A stretch of DNA of 47,645 bases from Bacteroidota bacterium (GTDB lineage Bacteria > Bacteroidota > Bacteroidia > Bacteroidales > UBA7960), in assembly GCA_007693555.1 (NCBI GenBank), contig REDJ01000089.1, positions 1 through 47,645 of the forward strand, read 5' to 3'. The position numbers and the translations under genes are program-made. The notes under the pieces were generated by a model. It was not told the origin of the DNA and did no database searches. It was given only the letters and a program-made list of their open reading frames with translations. How positions within the stretch are numbered: position 1 is the stretch's first letter; each line of letters begins with the position of its first letter. Shown here piece by piece: positions 5,059 to 12,717 of this stretch.

Positions 5059-6636
5059 ATGAAGAATACCGTCACATTTATTCTTTCTGTGGTTGTACCC
5101 CTGGTAATTATCACTTTGATACTGCGCGATGCCTCAAGGGAAAACAAGCTCCTGGCTGAGTTGAAAGAAGAATACAGCCAGCCACATATCCCCAGTGTGG
5201 ACCACAGCAAACATGAGGTTTTGCAGCGGGATTTTGATAACCCCCATGAGATCACGGCAACATGCATCTCTTGTCATACCGAACGGGGACAAGAACTTTT
5301 AAACAGTTTCCATTTTACCTGGGAAAGGGAAGATTTCATTGAAGGAAGAGGCGTTACCTACCTGGGAAAGCGAAACCTGCTGAACAACTTCTGCACCGGT
5401 ATTTTCTCCAATGAAGCTACCTGCAACCGCTGCCATGCAGGCTATGGATATTCTGATAAAAACTTTGATTTTACCAATCAATATAACGTGGATTGCCTGG
5501 TATGCCATGACAATACCGGCAGTTACGAAAAACTGAGAGGGGGAGCGGGATATCCGGTTCCCGGACAGGACTTTCGTACCATCGTGCAGAATGTGGGCCG
5601 GCCCACAAAGGCCAACTGCGGCTATTGTCATTTTCATGGCGGCGGTGGTAATAATGTAAAACACGGAGACCTTGAGGAAGCCCTTCTTACTGCATCACGC
5701 CAGGTGGATGTGCATATGGGAGTTGACGGGGCCAATCTTGAGTGCGTTGATTGCCACGTTACCCAAAACCATGTAATGAAAGGCAGATACTACGGGGTAT
5801 CTTCGGCCAATACCCGTCGGGCAACCTGCGAGCAATGTCATACTGCAGCTCCACACCTGGATAATATGCTCAACACCCATGTTGAAAAAATTGCCTGCCA
5901 AACCTGCCACATCCCTGAATATGCCAAAGTAAACGCCACCAAAATGTTCTGGGACTGGTCAACCGCCGGCGAACTGGAAGACGGGCGTGCTTTTGAGCTT
6001 TATGATGAACAAGGCAACCCAATTTATCAATCCATCAAAGGAGATGCGGCCTGGCAAACCAATGTAATACCCGAGTACTTCTGGTTTAACGGTACAGCCG
6101 ACCATTTCCTGCTATCAGACAAGGTGGATACCACCGAGGCCTTTTTGCGCATCAATACTTTGTTTGGTGATGCCAACGACCCTGAATCACGAATCTACCC
6201 GGTGAAAGTGCACAGGGGCCGGCAACCTTATGATCCGGTCTACCTCACCATCCTGCAGGCAAAACTCTGGGACAGGGAAGCAGGAAGGGGAGCTCTTTGG
6301 ATCGATCTTGACTGGGAAAGAGCACTGGTAGAAGGGATGAAATATCTTGACAGACCCTACAGCGGACAATGGGACTTTGTGGATACCGAAATGTACCTGC
6401 CCGTAAACCATATGGTATCACCGGCAAGCGAAGCTTTGCAATGCCAGGACTGTCACACAAGAACAAACGGACGTATGCAGTTTGTTGAGGGTGCATACAT
6501 ACCGGGAAAAACCACCAATGCCGCAGTTGATAGCCTGGGTGTACTCCTGATAATTATGTCATTTCTGGGTGTTATCACTCATGCTGTTATCAGATATATT
6601 TCTCACAGAAAAAACAAGGTAGTCACTTCTTCATAA
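5059..6636 (+). CDS. Octaheme c-type cytochrome, OTR (tetrathionate reductase) family
   Basis: The 525-residue protein has eight CXXCH haem-binding motifs, starting at residues 69, 122, 146, 187, 229, 257, 280 and 462. The long gap before the last haem and the CGYCHFHGGGG segment match the octaheme tetrathionate reductase family typified by Shewanella OTR. Family members reduce tetrathionate, and in vitro also nitrite and hydroxylamine. An N-terminal hydrophobic helix (6-23) and a C-terminal helix (494-514, followed by a basic tail) anchor it with the haem domain in the periplasm. A cytochrome b gene follows after 9 bases as the likely quinol-oxidising partner. It leads the seven-gene cluster. 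The physiological substrate cannot be decided from sequence; the rhodanese and YeeE neighbours favour a sulfur compound. Confidence 0.88.
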   Translation: MKNTVTFILSVVVPLVIITLILRDASRENKLLAELKEEYSQPHIPSVDHSKHEVLQRDFDNPHEITATCISCHTERGQELLNSFHFTWEREDFIEGRGVTYLGKRNLLNNFCTGIFSNEATCNRCHAGYGYSDKNFDFTNQYNVDCLVCHDNTGSYEKLRGGAGYPVPGQDFRTIVQNVGRPTKANCGYCHFHGGGGNNVKHGDLEEALLTASRQVDVHMGVDGANLECVDCHVTQNHVMKGRYYGVSSANTRRATCEQCHTAAPHLDNMLNTHVEKIACQTCHIPEYAKVNATKMFWDWSTAGELEDGRAFELYDEQGNPIYQSIKGDAAWQTNVIPEYFWFNGTADHFLLSDKVDTTEAFLRINTLFGDANDPESRIYPVKVHRGRQPYDPVYLTILQAKLWDREAGRGALWIDLDWERALVEGMKYLDRPYSGQWDFVDTEMYLPVNHMVSPASEALQCQDCHTRTNGRMQFVEGAYIPGKTTNAAVDSLGVLLIIMSFLGVITHAVIRYISHRKNKVVTSS

Positions 6637-6645
6637 ATCTGTATC

Positions 6646-7371
6646 ATGGCTAAAAAAGAAAAAGTCTATATCTATAAATTGTATGAAAGATTCTGGCACT
6701 GGACACAGGCCTTTCTCATATTCTTCCTGGCTCTTACCGGGTTTGAGGTGCATGGTTCATTCACCTTTTTTGGCTTTGAAAATGCGGTTGACCTTCATAA
6801 TAAAGCTGCTTGGGCCTTTATCATACTCACCATATTTACCATTTTCTGGCATTTTACCACCGGTGAGTGGAAGCAATACCTGCCTACGACAGAAAACCTC
6901 AAAGCACAGGCTCAATACTATATTTTCGGAATCTTCCGAAATGCCCCCCACCCTACCCGGAAAACCATACTCAGCAAGTTGAATCCGCTGCAAAGGCTGG
7001 TTTATCTTTCTTTGAAGATACTGGTCTTCCCGGTTATGATAGCCTCTGGACTGGCTTATATGTTTTACCGCTATCCCAGCCAGGGTGAAATTTTGGAACT
7101 GGGCATCGGCAGCCTTGAAACCATAGCTTTGCTGCATACTATTGGAGCCTATATTCTGATTGCTTTTGTCATTGTACATTTGTATCTGATTACTACGGGG
7201 CACACCCTCACCTCCAACCTTAAAGCCATGATAACAGGCTGGGAAGAACTGGAAACAGAAGAAGGGGAAACACCTGTATCACAAACCATAAAAGATCCTG
7301 TCGGTGAGAAAATAAGGGAAAACACCCCCCAAATCACACCGGACAGGTACGAAAATAAAGAAGAGATTTAA
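6646..7371 (+). CDS. Membrane cytochrome b (b561/hydrogenase-b type)
   Basis: The 241-residue protein has four hydrophobic helices (about 20-33, 54-72, 118-140 and 160-184) with histidines placed as haem ligands in or near them: His18, His51, His69, His164, His178 and His186. This matches the di-haem cytochrome b subunit of Ni,Fe-hydrogenases and formate dehydrogenases and related cytochrome b561 proteins, which pass electrons between the quinone pool and a periplasmic redox partner. Here that partner is probably the octaheme cytochrome encoded 9 bases upstream. The C-terminal tail (about 200-241) is polar and acidic, probably cytoplasmic. Confidence 0.82.
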   Translation: MAKKEKVYIYKLYERFWHWTQAFLIFFLALTGFEVHGSFTFFGFENAVDLHNKAAWAFIILTIFTIFWHFTTGEWKQYLPTTENLKAQAQYYIFGIFRNAPHPTRKTILSKLNPLQRLVYLSLKILVFPVMIASGLAYMFYRYPSQGEILELGIGSLETIALLHTIGAYILIAFVIVHLYLITTGHTLTSNLKAMITGWEELETEEGETPVSQTIKDPVGEKIRENTPQITPDRYENKEEI

Positions 7372-7389
7372 AATCAAAACCAACGTATT

Positions 7390-8652
7390 ATGAAAAAAAC
7401 AGTATTATTTACGGCTTTGTTTTTATTCTGTTTTGGTGCAAAAGCACAGTTAACCTTAAATGCCGATATCAGCCCACGTGCAGAATTGCGCAGGGGTTAC
7501 AGGACCATGCCCCGGCCAATTGATAATGCTGCGGCACACGTAAACCAGAGAACCAGGCTGGGCCTGGGTTATGATGTTGAAAATTTTCGGCTGCATATCT
7601 CTTTCCAGGATGTAAGGGTATGGGGGCAGGATCCTTTGCTTACAAATATTCCCTCTCTTGCCCTTCATGAAGCCTGGGCAGAGATGATGTTTAACAATAA
7701 CCTTTCCCTTAAATTTGGCCGGCAGGAATTAAGATATGACAACCAGCGTTTTCTTTCCATCAACGACTGGCAGGTTTTTGGCCGCAAGCATGATCTGGCT
7801 TTGCTGAAGTATAAATCTGACATTGGCGAATTTCATTTTGGCACTGCATTCAACCAGGATTGGGCCGCTTATGGGCGTAACTTCGGAACAGAATACAGTC
7901 TTAACCGGCAAGCCAACATAAACGCTTACAAATACATGAGCTACCTGTGGTATCATACACCTCTGGCTGAAACTGCAAAACTATCTTTGCTGGCTCTTTT
8001 TGATGGTTTTGAAAACCCTTTCGACAGTGAAGAACTCAACACAAGAGCTACCTGGTCGGCTTTCCTTGATATGGACCTTGATGCCATTGACCTTGTATTT
8101 AACCCTGCATTCCAGCATGGAAGAACCCGAACCGGGCAAGGTATCAGAGCTTACTATTTCCGGCTGGAAGGGAGCATGGGGGTTGCCGAAAATGTAAGAT
8201 CAACTCTGGGGATGGAATTATTCTCCGGTAATGATGGTACAGACCCTGACGATACTTCCCGTGCTTTTGATTTACCCTATGGTGCCGGACATGCCAATAA
8301 CGGCTTTATGGATTACTTCACCAACTATCCGGCTCATACCCGGGGAGCGGGGTTAATTAATCCATACCTGAAAAACCGCATTAGATTAAATCCACGCACA
8401 GTTTTCGGCGGTGACCTGCATTTGTTTTTCATCCAGAACAACTACGTGCACCAGGGAGAAACCATTAGCAAATACCTGGGCACGGAGATAGACTTTACAC
8501 TCAATTACCGCTTCAATGATTTTACCAATATAATCGGAGGATTCTCAACCATGTTTGGCTCTGAATCCATGGAAATAATCAAAAGCGGCGACAAGGATGA
8601 ATTTGCCTATTTTGCTTATATCATGCTCAGGATCAGGCCAAAACTTTTTTAA
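7390..8652 (+). CDS. Alginate-export-family outer-membrane porin
   Basis: The 420-residue protein starts with a clear signal peptide (about 1-19, ending KAQ) and continues with alternating aromatic and polar residues typical of amphipathic beta-strands. Recognisable segments include KFGRQELRYDNQRF and the C-terminal strand ending in RPKLF, consistent with the alginate_exp/AlgE-like barrel family, which in many anaerobic clusters provides an outer-membrane channel for solutes unrelated to alginate. In the cluster it follows the cytochrome b by 18 bases, and I infer that it admits the electron acceptor, perhaps an anionic sulfur oxyanion. The substrate is not visible in the sequence. Confidence 0.75.
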   Translation: MKKTVLFTALFLFCFGAKAQLTLNADISPRAELRRGYRTMPRPIDNAAAHVNQRTRLGLGYDVENFRLHISFQDVRVWGQDPLLTNIPSLALHEAWAEMMFNNNLSLKFGRQELRYDNQRFLSINDWQVFGRKHDLALLKYKSDIGEFHFGTAFNQDWAAYGRNFGTEYSLNRQANINAYKYMSYLWYHTPLAETAKLSLLALFDGFENPFDSEELNTRATWSAFLDMDLDAIDLVFNPAFQHGRTRTGQGIRAYYFRLEGSMGVAENVRSTLGMELFSGNDGTDPDDTSRAFDLPYGAGHANNGFMDYFTNYPAHTRGAGLINPYLKNRIRLNPRTVFGGDLHLFFIQNNYVHQGETISKYLGTEIDFTLNYRFNDFTNIIGGFSTMFGSESMEIIKSGDKDEFAYFAYIMLRIRPKLF

Positions 8653-8694: not shown

Positions 8695-9780
8695 ATGACA
8701 CATATAAGCTCTTTTATCAAACCCTTTATACTTCTGCTTGCAGCAGCAGTCTTTATTGCATGTTCCGGGCGTGAAACCCAAACAGAACATACTGCTGAAA
8801 TAAATGAAGCAGAAATTCTGCTGCATTACCTTGAAGAGAACGGGGATATAGTTAATCACCCTGATATTCCTTATTTCATCAATGCACAGGAGATTCATGA
8901 GAATCTAAACGGTTCCAATTATCATGTTATAGATGTAAGATCGCCCAGGGAATTCAGGCGCGGTCATATTGCACATGCTGTAAATGTGCAACCGGAAAAT
9001 ATTCTTGATTATTTTGAAAACCGTATTGAGCCCAACAGCTTTGAAAAGATAACTATCGTATGCAACAATGCGCATCTTTCAGGCTATGTAACAGCAATCC
9101 TGCGCATGCTGGGCTACGACAACATCTATAATATGCGCTTCGGAATGAGCTCCTGGCACGATGATATTGCACGCAGGTTTTGGTATGCAAATATATCCGA
9201 CGATTTGCTGGGAAAGCTGGAAACCACACCACATCCCAAAAATGAGCCCGGACAACTTCCTGTCGTCAGCACCGGAAAAACTGCGGGCTATGAAATATTA
9301 AGGGCCCGTGCACAAAAAGCACTGGAAATTCAATGGGAAGACATCAGTATTGACTACCTCGATATCCTCGAAGGTGTGGAAGATTATTACGTGATCAATT
9401 ACTGGCCCCAGGTTTTGTATGATGCGGGACACCTGCCCGGGGCAATTCAGTACAATCCCAAAAAAGCTTTTCACAGCGATGAAGATATTTTAACGCTACC
9501 CGTGGACAGACCGCTCGTGGTGTATTGTTTTACAGGGCAGAATGCGGCATACGCCAATGCTTATCTTGCATTGCTGGGATATGAATTCCGCAGTCTGGAT
9601 TATGGCGCAAACAGTTTCATCCACCAGACCATGTTCACCACGCAGCCTCCAGGAAGATCTTTTTCCGAAAGGCATGTGATGAATTATCCCCTGGTAAGAG
9701 ACGGTCTCATGCAGGCTCCCTCTCCCCAGGCAAAACCTGCTGAAAAAGAAGAAGTGATTACAGCGCAGGGAGGATGCTAA
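8695..9780 (+). CDS. Lipoprotein with two rhodanese domains and a C-terminal Gly-Gly-Cys tail
   Basis: The 361-residue protein has a lipoprotein signal (hydrophobic 8-22, acceptor Cys23). Rhodanese domain 1 covers about 60-165, with active-site loop IVCNNAHLSG (Cys123). Domain 2 covers about 215-315, with loop VVYCFTGQNA (Cys278). Both keep the catalytic cysteine that forms a persulfide during sulfur transfer from thiosulfate or similar donors. A proline-rich linker (about 336-350) leads to the ending EEV-ITAQGGC, with Cys361 as the last residue. The same GGC ending recurs on the two other rhodanese proteins of the cluster. As a lipoprotein it should work outside the cytoplasm, near the octaheme cytochrome and porin. 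The exact substrate is unknown. Confidence 0.85.
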   Translation: MTHISSFIKPFILLLAAAVFIACSGRETQTEHTAEINEAEILLHYLEENGDIVNHPDIPYFINAQEIHENLNGSNYHVIDVRSPREFRRGHIAHAVNVQPENILDYFENRIEPNSFEKITIVCNNAHLSGYVTAILRMLGYDNIYNMRFGMSSWHDDIARRFWYANISDDLLGKLETTPHPKNEPGQLPVVSTGKTAGYEILRARAQKALEIQWEDISIDYLDILEGVEDYYVINYWPQVLYDAGHLPGAIQYNPKKAFHSDEDILTLPVDRPLVVYCFTGQNAAYANAYLALLGYEFRSLDYGANSFIHQTMFTTQPPGRSFSERHVMNYPLVRDGLMQAPSPQAKPAEKEEVITAQGGC

Positions 9781-9782
9781 TT

Positions 9783-9832
9783 GGTGTTGGAGCATAGCGA
9801 CAATCCCGAGAGCGAATAGCGATTCGGGAATG
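9783..9832 (+). repeat. Left arm of a 50-base inverted repeat flanking the yeeE gene
   Basis: The reverse complement of 9783-9832 matches 10688-10737 at 46 of 50 positions by direct comparison. The arms face each other around the first YeeE/YedE gene, about 855 bases apart. The core includes CGAATCGCT and GGGATTGTCGCT. Confidence 0.9.
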
Positions 9833-9854
9833 GGTGATGGGTAAAATTAGGTTA

Positions 9855-9894
9855 TGCCGGCCAATTCCCCCTTTGAAAAGGGGGCCAGGGGGAT
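9855..9894 (+). repeat. Palindromic intergenic repeat, copy 1
   Basis: The unit starts TGCCGGCCAATTCCCCCTTT and continues through AAAAGGGGGCC to AGGGGGAT. CCCCCTTT pairs with AAAGGGGG around a tiny loop. Related units occur at 9951-10012, 40463-40718 (reverse orientation) and 47513-47610. Confidence 0.85.
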
Positions 9895-9950
9895 TGATTG
9901 GAAAGTTAATGAGTGGAAGAGTGAAAAAGTTTATTGAATCTTTGAATTTT

Positions 9951-10012
9951 TGCCGGCCAATTCCCCCTTTGAAACCCGAAGGGTTCGACGAAGTCAACGG
10001 GGCCAGGGGGAT
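9951..10012 (+). repeat. Palindromic intergenic repeat, copy 2, with a nested insertion
   Basis: This starts with the same TGCCGGCCAATTCCCCCTTT as copy 1 and ends with the same GGGGCCAGGGGGAT, but about 22 extra bases sit at the hairpin tip, including ACCCGAAGGGT, itself a small palindrome. Confidence 0.8.
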
Positions 10013-10150
10013 GTAAGTAAGTTGAAGAGTTTTTAGATTGATATATCTTTAAAAAAATATAAAACAGAAAAATATATTTTCTCAGGAAATTCCAATACTA
10101 TAAGGGCATCAGAGAAAATGTTTTAAAAATATTAAAACAACAACAGAAAC

Positions 10151-10675
10151 ATGGAAAATCAAAATTCACCCAAACCCTTCATGAACCCTTACCTTGCAGG
10201 TTTTCTGCTGGGATTGGTACTTCTGGCTTCATTTGTCATTGTGGGCCGTGGCCTTGGAGCAAGCGGTGCAGCACGAGATGCTATGGTGGCTACAGTAATC
10301 AATGTTGCACCGGAATATGCTGAAAAATCAATCTATTACGAACCTTACGTGGCAGCCGGCGAGAGCCCCATTCGCTCATGGCTGGTATTCCTTGCTTTGG
10401 GAGTTATCATAGGTGGTTTTATCAGCGGGGCATCGTCAAACCGTTTAGGATTTAAAATGGAAAGAGGACCACGCATCAGTGGACCCACAAGGGCTTTTCT
10501 TGCCGTTGCAGGTGGGCTGCTTTTTGGACTGGGGGCACAGTTTGGCCGGGGATGCACCAGCGGTGCAGCGCTTAGCGGTATGGCCGTGCTTTCTACCGGC
10601 GGCATCCTTACCATGATGACCATCTTTGGTACCGGATATCTCATAGCTTATTTCTTCAGAAAATTGTGGATATAA
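10151..10675 (+). CDS. YeeE/YedE-family half-transporter (first half)
   Basis: The 174-residue membrane protein has about four hydrophobic segments (15-33, 77-95, 115-132 and 150-168) and the family signature GRGCTSG with Cys135. YeeE/YedE proteins include TsuA, a thiosulfate importer that uses conserved cysteines and glycine-rich loops; full-length members have two such repeats. Here one half is encoded alone and the other half is fused to a rhodanese domain in the next gene, so the two probably assemble into one transporter. Direction and substrate (thiosulfate or another sulfur species) are inferred. The gene is bracketed by an inverted repeat pair. Confidence 0.87.
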   Translation: MENQNSPKPFMNPYLAGFLLGLVLLASFVIVGRGLGASGAARDAMVATVINVAPEYAEKSIYYEPYVAAGESPIRSWLVFLALGVIIGGFISGASSNRLGFKMERGPRISGPTRAFLAVAGGLLFGLGAQFGRGCTSGAALSGMAVLSTGGILTMMTIFGTGYLIAYFFRKLWI

Positions 10676-10687
10676 CAACCCGTTAAA

Positions 10688-10737
10688 CATTCCCGAATCG
10701 CTAATCGCTCTTGGGATTGTCGCTTTGCTCCAATACC
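10688..10737 (-). repeat. Right arm of the 50-base inverted repeat flanking the yeeE gene
   Basis: Matches the reverse complement of 9783-9832 with four mismatches. It starts 12 bases after the first YeeE stop and occupies most of the 125-base gap to the second YeeE gene. Confidence 0.9.
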
Positions 10738-10800
10738 CGTTAACCGTCACTAAAGATTTGATTAAAAATTATTTCAACAGAAAACACTAAAATAAAAAAT

Positions 10801-12030
10801 ATGGCACCATTTATTCCCGAAGGCATAGTAAACCCCGATCTCAACCTGTTCTACGCGCTTGTGTTGGGCATCGGATTTGGCTATGTGCTTGAACAGGCAG
10901 GATTCTCTTCTTCGCGCAAACTGGCAGGTGTATTTTATGGCTATGACTTTGTTGTGCTGCGTGTATTTTTTACGGCAGGCATTACTGCCATGGTAGGACT
11001 GCTATTCCTGAGCTTCATGGGCTGGATAGACATGAGCCTGGTATACGTTAATCCTCTTTATGTATGGTCGGCGATACTCGGCGGAGCCATTATGGGCTTT
11101 GGCTTTATCATCGGAGGATATTGCCCCGGTACAAGCATTGTTGCTGCCACAGTGGGCAAGATTGACGCCATGCTGTTTTTGCTGGGTTCAGTAATTGGTA
11201 TCTTTATTTTTGCGCATTTCTACAATAGCTGGGAACCCCTGTTCATGGGATATTTTGAAGGAAATCCTTTTATCTATGAAACACTGGGCATGTCAAGGGC
11301 ATGGTTTGCCTTTATTCTGGTAATGGTGGCAGTTACCGCTTTTGCCATTACACAAAAAATTGAAGATAATGTAAATAAAACACCACCTCATGTTATTGAG
11401 CAACGTCCGTCTTATGTATTTCCGGGCATGCTTCTTATTGTTTCCATTTTTGCCTTTCTGTTTTTACCCGAGCAAAGAAAAAGCAACGCCAGGGAACTGC
11501 CTCCCGACCGTCTGCATGCCATGTTAGTGGAAAACAATCATTTTGTGGATGCAGAAGAAACGATCTACAAAATTATGCATGAAGACAGGAATTTCATTCT
11601 TATTGATGTAAGAGATCCTGAAGAGTATGAAAAATTTGCACTTCCGGGTGCCATAAATATTACCAAAGACGAAATCCTCGGCAGAAGGTACAGGGATTTT
11701 TTCCGCAATGCCCCTGTAAACTCCAAAAGGGTATTCTACGGCTTTGGCGAAAGCGCCGCTGAGCTGGCATGGACAATTGCCACACGTGCCGGATATGATA
11801 ATGTATTTGTTATGAAAGGTGGGCTGAACGGCTTGTTTGACGAACTATTCAACGGCAATGACAAGCCGGATGACCCCCTGGATCTGGATGAAGAGTTCAG
11901 AGTAAGATTTCTGACAAAGGCCAGACAACTCTTCCTCGAAGGGGATGCTCTGCCAAAAGAACCACCTGCACCGGTGCCCATCAGAACCATCATTGAACTT
12001 GAAACCCCCGGCGGAAGAGGAGGATGTTAG
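10801..12030 (+). CDS. YeeE/YedE half-transporter fused to a cysteine-less rhodanese domain, GGC tail
   Basis: The protein has 409 residues. Residues 15-185 form the second YeeE/YedE half, with the glycine-rich motif GGYCPGTS (Cys108) and about five membrane helices. A further helix at about 207-223 leads to a rhodanese domain at 235-350. That domain keeps LIDVRDPEEYEKFALPGA but its active-site loop reads VFYGFGESA, so the catalytic Cys is Gly314. A proline-rich linker (PKEPPAPVP, 385-393) leads to the end ETPGGRGGC, with Cys409 last. Apart from Cys108, Cys409 is the only cysteine. The fusion puts the sulfur-handling domain at the transporter's mouth, and I infer that the terminal cysteine replaces the missing active site. 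It is probably membrane-bound; which face the rhodanese occupies is not certain. Confidence 0.87.
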   Translation: MAPFIPEGIVNPDLNLFYALVLGIGFGYVLEQAGFSSSRKLAGVFYGYDFVVLRVFFTAGITAMVGLLFLSFMGWIDMSLVYVNPLYVWSAILGGAIMGFGFIIGGYCPGTSIVAATVGKIDAMLFLLGSVIGIFIFAHFYNSWEPLFMGYFEGNPFIYETLGMSRAWFAFILVMVAVTAFAITQKIEDNVNKTPPHVIEQRPSYVFPGMLLIVSIFAFLFLPEQRKSNARELPPDRLHAMLVENNHFVDAEETIYKIMHEDRNFILIDVRDPEEYEKFALPGAINITKDEILGRRYRDFFRNAPVNSKRVFYGFGESAAELAWTIATRAGYDNVFVMKGGLNGLFDELFNGNDKPDDPLDLDEEFRVRFLTKARQLFLEGDALPKEPPAPVPIRTIIELETPGGRGGC

Positions 12031-12096
12031 CATTAGCGGATTTATAACCAAAAAGTACCTGTAAACAGAGAAGTTTTTAACGAAAAAACAAGTAAT

Positions 12097-12717
12097 ATGC
12101 AAATCAATAATAACCTCAATAACATCAGTATTCTGTTCTTCAGCTTTGTAGCCATTGTTGTGGTGATAAATCTTTTTACCACCAACAATTATGGCAGAGC
12201 CAACCAGCAGGTTGTAAAACTCCTGGAGGGTGAAGACCATATCTTTGATTACTTTCAGCTTCACAGGATTATCACAGAACAAACCGGGGATTATATTCTT
12301 ATTGACCTGAGGACAGAAGATGAATTTGAAAAAGAACATTTACCCGGAGCCATTAACCTGCCTTTTGGAGATTTATTGGATAGCCGTAACCTGAGAATGC
12401 TACGCAGGCTTAATGAACAAACCCCCGTTTTATATGCTGAAACAGAAGCGCGCGCTCAATCCGCCCGTATGCTTCTGCTTTCAAAAGGCCTTGAACCACG
12501 GGTTAAGGTAATGGGAGGCAATTATGCCACAGCTGTTAAATTTGCCCTCGACTCTTTCAATCCTGCCTTTGCTTCCTATAAGGATGAAAAAGCCCGCTTC
12601 GATTACCGTCGTTTCATGCAAACCGGTGCAGCACAAGCCACCCCCGGAAGAGAACAACTTCCCGGCATCATTCCTGCAGTTGAGGAGGTGACGGTATCTG
12701 TTCAGGGTGGGTGTTAA
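12097..12717 (+). CDS. Membrane-anchored, catalytically dead rhodanese with a single, C-terminal cysteine
   Basis: The 206-residue protein has one N-terminal membrane helix (about 10-28) and a rhodanese domain at 45-155 (LIDLRTEDEFEKEHLPGAIN). The active-site loop is VLYAETEARA, with Ala114 where the catalytic Cys belongs. The tail runs PGIIPAVEEV-TVSVQGGC, and Cys206, the last residue, is the only cysteine in the protein. The tail resembles that of the two-domain lipoprotein (PA, EEV and QGGC in the same order). As last gene of the cluster, 66 bases after the YeeE-rhodanese fusion, it may be a sulfur acceptor or carrier rather than an enzyme. The function is inferred. Confidence 0.82.
   Translation: MQINNNLNNISILFFSFVAIVVVINLFTTNNYGRANQQVVKLLEGEDHIFDYFQLHRIITEQTGDYILIDLRTEDEFEKEHLPGAINLPFGDLLDSRNLRMLRRLNEQTPVLYAETEARAQSARMLLLSKGLEPRVKVMGGNYATAVKFALDSFNPAFASYKDEKARFDYRRFMQTGAAQATPGREQLPGIIPAVEEVTVSVQGGC

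Follow-up and report, generated by a model that had tools for sequence, protein, structure and literature searches.

Why should three rhodanese-like proteins encoded close together in one operon all end in the same three residues? The question is raised by contig REDJ01000089.1 of a Bacteroidota bacterium (assembly GCA_007693555.1), of which positions 1 to 47,645 were analysed on the forward strand. This whole stretch of 47,645 nucleotides is called the window. The three proteins, numbered in gene order, terminate in Gly-Gly-Cys (GGC). They are likely to be sulfur carriers, probably periplasmic, on a rhodanese fold, with the C-terminal cysteine on a flexible arm as the working thiol. They probably hand sulfur between a YeeE transporter and a respiratory enzyme. 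The tail is conserved in related loci, the catalytic cysteine of the fold is lost in nearly all YeeE-fused and stand-alone members, the genes are linked to those of YeeE and of respiratory enzymes, and tails encoded in the same locus resemble each other. The features concerned are the following:

8695..9780, + strand: protein 1, two-domain rhodanese lipoprotein, 361 amino acids (PF00581, two stretches)
9769..9777, + strand: terminal GGC codons of protein 1, GGA GGA TGC
10151..10675, + strand: YeeE C-half (PmpA-like) with a single cysteine, Cys135, in GRGCTSG (PF04143, profile positions 177-309)
10801..12030, + strand: protein 2, YeeE N-half (PmpB-like) fused to a rhodanese, 409 amino acids (PF04143, positions 10-161, and PF00581)
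11740..11742, + strand: codon of Gly314 in protein 2, at the rhodanese catalytic-cysteine position (catalytic-column alignment and cysteine census)
12019..12027, + strand: terminal GGC codons of protein 2 (Cys409), GGA GGA TGT
12097..12717, + strand: protein 3, single rhodanese domain after an N-terminal hydrophobic helix, 206 amino acids (PF00581)
12436..12438, + strand: codon of Ala114 in protein 3, at the rhodanese catalytic-cysteine position (catalytic-column alignment and cysteine census)
12706..12714, + strand: terminal GGC codons of protein 3 (Cys206), GGT GGG TGT

The translations of the open reading frames (ORFs) bear out the sequence-only reading, which had reported GGC as the ending of three proteins in a single gene cluster (...ITAQGGC in protein 1, ...PGGRGGC in protein 2 and ...SVQGGC in protein 3) and that their codons for these residues differ. 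Related loci, denoted by L numbers, were collected in a profile search that took aligned YeeE C-half sequences as its query and was run on the contigs of one genome per species (84,980 species). The best 80 of 478 confirmed relatives were retained, corresponding to 79 distinct loci, and this holds for all counts over 79 loci. The query carries no rhodanese information, and the sample is therefore independent of the GGC tail. In the database, the loci were mainly labelled as Bacteroidales and other Bacteroidetes/Ignavibacteria, and single loci were labelled Myxococcales, Holophagaceae, Armatimonadetes and LCP-89. Cultured species that carry such loci include Maribacter polysiphoniae DSM 23514 and Carboxylicivirga linearis (L093 and L056). 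ORF calling was mechanical (longest first, no overlap) and may hide or invent genes.

A GGC-tailed rhodanese was present in 75 of the 79 loci. Three of the other four (L064, L082 and L115) were cut by contig ends, and L098 was without the tail. Unrelated C-termini in orthologous clusters, named beforehand as the observation that would speak against a meaningful ending, were looked for in this sample, and the retention of the tail in 75 loci left the GGC ending standing. Among complete ORFs with a rhodanese match, 128 of 147 ended in GGC followed by 0-2 residues, versus none of the 680 other complete ORFs of at least 100 amino acids, only two of which ended in cysteine. The 128 tails were GGC (111), GGCS (15), GGCA (1) and GGCGI (1). 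They used 28 of the 32 possible codon combinations, so selection acts on the protein, as had been claimed from the three window genes. In the source assembly (4.2 Mb, 96.7% complete), GGNGGNTGYTRR occurred at 49 sites. Three of these were the window genes, 11 read TGG and thus held no stop, and at the remaining 35 only ORFs of 70, 44 and 30 amino acids terminated; hence no further ORF of at least 100 amino acids in the assembly ends in GGC. A chance or DNA-level origin of the ending was rejected on the ORF counts, the GGNGGNTGYTRR census and the codon diversity.

L098 was the only locus in which the fused rhodanese was complete and a GGC protein was nonetheless missing. Its YeeE-rhodanese fusion (L098:7519-8700) lacks GGC, and a lysine-rich stretch, ...VGCYS, was found in a different frame. 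The absence of the tail may reflect a frameshift or a loss.

Further samples were read for their tails. In 395 genomes of the phylum, protein 3 was matched in 118, mostly by generic rhodaneses, judging from the weak scores, and the best 30 loci were examined. In L010-L038 of this second sample, complete rhodaneses were divided by the presence of YeeE in the stretch examined: 16 of 16 with it ended in GC plus 0-3 residues, and three of 15 without it did so. These three, two in L014 and one in L020, look like members of the same family. Glu-Gly-Cys (EGC) was the ending of 10 of the 19 GC-ending ORFs of at least 150 amino acids (loci L010-L032). Near-full-length fusion matches in the window's family numbered 29 among those listed, including the window's own; 26 reached the last profile position, one ended four positions short and two ended at position 361 of 398. 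In the 15 best fusion-match loci, some of which overlap with the YeeE sample, every complete carrier ended in GGC. In the phylum of L102, the tails read were GGC, GGCSA, GGCSS, GGGC, EGC and RGC. A third sample comprised loci from 15 of 79 matching genomes, mostly what look like generic rhodanese matches, and its tails were read but left out of the counts; L173 and L174 held no complete carrier, and the carrier of L162 was hidden by the ORF calling and could not be read.

The sequence-only reading had missed the second half of the picture, the state of the active site. All three proteins carry the rhodanese fold (PF00581), and structural comparison of the protein 3 model gave rhodaneses as its top matches. 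Protein 1 has a cysteine at the catalytic position of both domains (Cys123 and Cys278), in addition to Cys23, which we take to be a lipobox cysteine from its motif, and the terminal Cys361. Proteins 2 and 3 lack the catalytic cysteine and carry Gly314 and Ala114, respectively, at that position of the loop. On this count, proteins 2 and 3 do not qualify as active rhodaneses, and protein 1 does. The tail residue Cys206 is the sole cysteine of protein 3. In the YeeE N-half of protein 2, Cys108 lies in GGYCPGT. Every cysteine of the four window proteins, the three rhodaneses and the YeeE C-half, could thus be placed in the lipobox, a catalytic position, the YeeE channel or the tail. Over the 79 loci and the window, 112 GGC rhodaneses were single-domain or fused, and 110 of these had Ser, Ala, Gly, Tyr or Asp in place of the catalytic cysteine. 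The two that keep it are in L057 and L061, and the latter, starting at the edge of its locus, may be a truncated two-domain protein. All 19 two-domain GGC proteins kept at least one catalytic cysteine. The pattern suggests that the reactive cysteine was relocated from the pocket to the tail, and the two-domain protein is a plausible loader of sulfur. If true, the carriers would be pseudoenzymes whose reactive residue moved to the tail.

A rhodanese-like protein in the PDB, Alr3790 (3k9r, 3ilm and 2kl3), also matched the carriers. It shows Tyr-Gly where the catalytic cysteine is expected and is possibly another cysteine-less rhodanese.

Three alignments were used: A1 with seven rows of the YeeE C-half, A2 with 35 rows of stand-alone carriers and A3 with 38 rows of fusions. 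In A2, G-G-C were the only invariant columns. Since the rows of A2 and A3 were selected for GGC ends, this invariance is partly by choice; the GGC counts over the 79 loci (147 and 680 ORFs) and the catalytic-position counts are free of this selection. The arm extends 44-60 residues from the end of the domain. Lysine makes up 20% of the 25 residues before the end, proline accounts for 11% and aromatic residues are nearly absent. The AlphaFold model of protein 3, built on the 35-row alignment, had a mean predicted local distance difference test score (pLDDT) of 84.1, with a confident anchor helix and rhodanese domain and values of 53-62 for residues 181-206. For protein 2 (38 rows), the mean was 75.2, and almost all of the last 28 residues fell below 50 (blocks of 43-49). 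Low pLDDT of this kind suggests a flexible or disordered arm, as expected for such a carrier, without being proof of one.

The predicted location is outside the cytoplasm. Protein 1 is placed there because of its presumed lipobox. In the fusion model, six long helices were taken as membrane-spanning, and the loops had lysine plus arginine (K+R) values of 0.00, 2.00, 0.05, 0.00, 0.71 and 1.79, in order. These charges agree with both the N-terminus and the rhodanese lying in the periplasm, in a topology that is itself predicted in part.

The tails of one locus are alike. Over the 12 residues before GGC, tails from the same locus shared an identity of 0.288, versus 0.153 in permutations (standard deviation 0.014; 102 pairs from 44 deduplicated loci, lineage composition being controlled only in part), and none of 2000 permutations reached the observed value. 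Before removal of duplicates, the tails shared 30% versus 15% permuted, and the rhodanese bodies 0.221 versus 0.247 permuted. The likeness held for lipoprotein-single, fusion-single and single-single pairs. Paralogous tails compared between loci with closely related YeeE shared 16-24% over 12 residues, versus 28% within loci, duplicates included. Such a contrast between tails and bodies is what arms with shared partner sites would be expected to show. By sequence, the arms may dock on common partner surfaces, and gene conversion may contribute. Recent copying, which had been discounted on the codons of the window genes, is indeed not the general cause, as 110 of the 279 residues common to co-encoded tails were encoded by differing codons; this part of the claim stands, but gene conversion is possible at L073, L076 and L114, where near-identical tails showed one or two codon differences in 12.

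The same likeness could be expected of a redox tether. Here, the terminal cysteine would form a disulfide with another arm, YeeE or the cytochrome and hold or switch the complex, and no sulfur would be carried. One cysteine at each arm tip and the presence of at least two arms in 49 of 90 loci (44 after duplicate removal), together with the resemblance of arms from one locus, agree with it. However, 41 of the 90 loci had a single arm, some of them being cut by contig ends, and the YeeE genes, the rhodanese fold and the linked sulfur reductases favour a role in handling sulfur. The tether is considered unlikely.

The linkage to reductases begins directly upstream of protein 1 in the window:

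5059..6636, + strand: octaheme c-type cytochrome of the octaheme tetrathionate reductase (OTR) family, 525 amino acids (TIGR04315, 560.6 bits, cut-off 375)
6646..7371, + strand: cytochrome b561-type membrane protein (PF01292, E 1.3e-28)
7390..8652, + strand: outer-membrane porin-like protein (PF13372, E 7.2e-9)

The cytochrome b561-type protein is likely the quinol link of the octaheme cytochrome. Over the 79 loci, the recurring families were octaheme cytochrome (44 loci), cytochrome b (43), iron-sulfur subunit (27), NrfD (27) and molybdopterin enzyme (24), and no further family occurred in more than 10. Counted as modules, 44 loci held the octaheme type and 28 a Phs/Psr-like type; three held both, with only the iron-sulfur part of the second in L084, and 10 held neither. 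In eight of these 10, the upstream genes are out of sight because the loci begin in or just before the rhodanese/YeeE genes. The other two, L074 and L075, are identical in sequence. Upstream of L075, a TetR regulator, an MMPL-type transporter, a LolA-like protein and a DUF1302 protein were found, and no respiratory partner was seen. Full-length matches to TIGR04315 above the curated cut-off were obtained in the window and three other loci scanned. The molybdoenzyme of L088 was nearest to the thiosulfate reductase PhsA, under the cut-off (459.6 versus 694), and presumably begins with a Tat-like motif.

Several arrangements were seen beside these modules. In L048 and L071, an NrfD-type module with a GGCS carrier stood back to back with an octaheme-type module with three carriers. 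A cytochrome resembling ExtM of Geobacter was encoded on the opposite strand near a Psr-type module at L105:1170-3083 (- strand) and in nine other loci; for this assignment, the L105 protein alone was scanned and scored under the model cut-off. In six loci (L065, L073, L088, L096, L105 and L114), the Psr-type module was followed by two more two-domain rhodaneses without GGC. The same six encoded an ExtI-like porin, under the cut-off in L088, the only one scanned, and a probable Crp-type regulator by sequence reading. In the window, the gene for the YeeE C-half is flanked by a 65-nucleotide inverted repeat, 85% complementary (9778-9842 and 10678-10742), and a 27-nucleotide direct repeat lies at 9852-9878 and 9948-9974; these repeats are possibly a small mobile or repetitive element.

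A second alternative keeps the arm and changes its cargo to selenium, tellurium or a metal. Matches to YedE of the selenium type, weak and far below the cut-offs, lean towards it, as do the ExtI-like porin and the ExtM-like cytochrome near some Psr-type loci, both below cut-off with one protein scanned for each. ExtI has been linked to selenite/tellurite reduction in Geobacter in the available part of PMC5877670. The recurring enzyme partners belong instead to the tetrathionate reductase family or are PhsA-like, and YeeE of the TsuA type is a thiosulfate transporter according to the accessible text of PMC11582611. Another soft cargo in place of sulfur thus appears quite improbable.

The sequence-only reading had offered a flexible sulfur-carrier arm or a tail trimmed to expose a diglycine. 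The first is well supported by sequence (75 of 79 loci, low-confidence arm, constant cysteine), but the second is disfavoured, because the EGC relatives have no diglycine and the cysteine is the constant residue. Trimming would leave a diglycine at the C-terminus for activation and thiocarboxylation, the route taken by carriers of the QbsE/ThiS type, and the GG-C ending presumably resembles that of QbsE. The window proteins do have GG, though many relatives end in EGC (the 10 of 19 in L010-L032) and others in GGCS or GGCGI, and the cysteine, which trimming would remove, does not vary. Among the twelve families found in at least six of the 79 loci, neither an E1-like or other activating enzyme nor a protease was recognised by family scan or sequence reading. 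Moreover, adenylation requires ATP, and the periplasm contains none. This makes trimming very improbable. It is equally hard to credit that the polybasic tail and terminal cysteine are a membrane-sorting or lipid-attachment signal, for which the lysine-rich tails before the cysteine in many loci, most of them of the Psr type, could be cited, since window-type tails are not lysine-rich, the proteins already have a lipobox or hydrophobic anchor, and we know of no bacterial enzyme that lipidates a C-terminal cysteine.

Periplasmic sulfur carriers on a rhodanese fold are therefore retained as the preferred reading, and from it we infer the persulfide chemistry, the cargo, the direction of flow, the partners and the role of YeeE. 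Sulfur anions (thiosulfate, tetrathionate or polysulfide) would enter through the porin. The two-domain lipoprotein with its two catalytic-position cysteines would load sulfane sulfur, and/or the octaheme cytochrome would couple sulfur species to the tail thiol. Carrier-bound sulfur, as Cys-S-SH or Cys-S-S-SO3, would then be swung between the lipoprotein, the split YeeE channel and the respiratory enzyme. The latter role would fall to the octaheme cytochrome together with cytochrome b, and in other genomes to a Phs/Psr-like complex. One arm would remain covalently tethered to the YeeE N-half. Reduction is suggested as the direction because the partners are quinol-linked. A more far-reaching proposal is put forward only tentatively: a Sox-independent, carrier-bound sulfur respiration in which octaheme cytochromes and Phs/Psr-like molybdoenzymes act on persulfide or thiosulfonate held on interchangeable GGC arms of dead rhodaneses. 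One arm would be part of the YeeE channel, and the substrate would be passed from arm to arm and never released.

Several observations weigh against the carrier reading. Among the 147 rhodanese ORFs of the 79 loci, 19 lacked GGC (15 two-domain and four one-domain). In L168, from another phylum, that of L102, a rhodanese beside YeeE had no tail cysteine, and L017 and L031 of the EGC branch retain a cysteine in the active-site loop. The fusion and the two-domain protein of L074/L075 are without GGC, and the third carrier alone keeps it; here, tail loss goes together with partner loss, in one lineage only. As to location, the stretch after the sixth helix of the fusion is neutral (K+R 2.26 versus 2.16 for aspartate plus glutamate), and the anchors of the stand-alone carriers are indecisive by charge, with K+R before the helix greater than after it in 14 of 35, equal in nine and less in 12. 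Lipoprotein-fusion pairs were weakly alike, as 207 of 2000 permutations reached their likeness over 12 residues and 17 of 2000 over six. The codon was also shared for 169 of the 279 residues common to co-encoded tails, and gene conversion could add to the likeness. Finally, a search that was positive in 11 of 14 controls did not find TusA, the usual cytoplasmic acceptor, which seems to be missing from this draft genome; without it, an import route through YeeE is difficult to complete.

None of the seven GGC proteins scanned reached an NCBIfam cut-off, and no description of the carrier family appeared in searches of open-licence PMC papers. Its parts can be compared with known systems. The window cytochrome resembles octaheme tetrathionate reductases in exceeding the TIGR04315 cut-off. 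No report of such an enzyme acting on a carrier-bound substrate was found in the available parts of the literature; if true, the reading would suggest that the physiological substrate of octaheme tetrathionate reductases can be bound to a protein.

Among single-cysteine carriers, PDB entry 1qxn, named sulfide dehydrogenase, was a weak match to the carriers (E 1.1e-4). We take it to be Sud, the polysulfide-sulfur transferase of Wolinella, a rhodanese-fold carrier with a single cysteine that serves polysulfide reductase. The cysteine of Sud sits in the active-site loop, whereas the single cysteine of protein 3 is at the C-terminus.

Like PmpAB and other YeeE proteins (TsuA, SoxT), for which the available text of PMC11582611 describes split halves with one conserved cysteine each, the window encodes two separate YeeE halves, each with a conserved cysteine: Cys135 was invariant in all seven rows of A1 and the cysteine at Cys108 in the 38 rows of A3. 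The present system differs from them in that its N-half commonly carries a fused GGC-tailed rhodanese and in that TusA was not found in the genome. In that paper, Li and co-workers considered the passage of sulfur from the SoxY cysteine along the YeeE cysteines conceivable and direct transfer questionable because of the distance. A presumed donor arm fused to the channel bears on the way in which YeeE-type channels receive their sulfur. According to the accessible text of PMC12142623, a role in sulfur trafficking is assigned to the periplasmic sulfurtransferases, porin and YeeE/YedE that are co-localised in Desulfurivibrio.

The comparators first named for the tails were DsrC/TusE and QbsE, in which functional residues lie at a flexible C-terminus, trimmed to a diglycine in QbsE. 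That likeness holds, but the folds differ, and the EGC relatives cannot be trimmed to a diglycine. No Pfam match to the DsrC fold was obtained in the three proteins at E 0.1, and the beta-grasp fold of QbsE, ThiS and MoaD was absent from the Pfam scan and the models, which gave rhodanese only. SoxY is the more fitting parallel: it is a periplasmic protein whose sulfur is carried on the cysteine of a C-terminal GGCGG (PMC6067878, available part).

The three proteins are not SoxY. A Pfam scan of the three proteins at E 0.1 yielded Rhodanese and/or Sulf_transp only, without PF13501, and membership of SoxY was rejected. The GG that follows GGC in SoxY was absent from all 128 tails. No SoxZ-like family was among the twelve recurring in the loci, although no genome search was aimed at SoxZ, and a search of the genome for SoxY gave no match, but none of its controls rang either, so this negative carries no weight. 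SoxY has a PF13501 domain, a SoxZ partner and a GGCGG end, whereas the proteins described here have a rhodanese scaffold and mostly a GGC end, with one carrier fused to YeeE. Some soxY variants adjoin YeeE/D or octaheme otr genes according to the accessible text of PMC11237559, which places such a variant beside otr in lucinid symbionts; with the rhodaneses described here, GGC carriers of two folds lie next to this family of cytochromes. The carriers have in common with SoxY the cysteine of a C-terminal Gly-Gly-Cys, a probably mobile arm and, in all likelihood, the periplasmic location and the carriage of sulfur, the SoxY features being those of the available part of PMC6067878. By analogy, the carriers may work like the swinging arm of SoxY on an unrelated fold; if true, the swinging-arm sulfur carrier would have a second solution, one unrelated in structure to the first.

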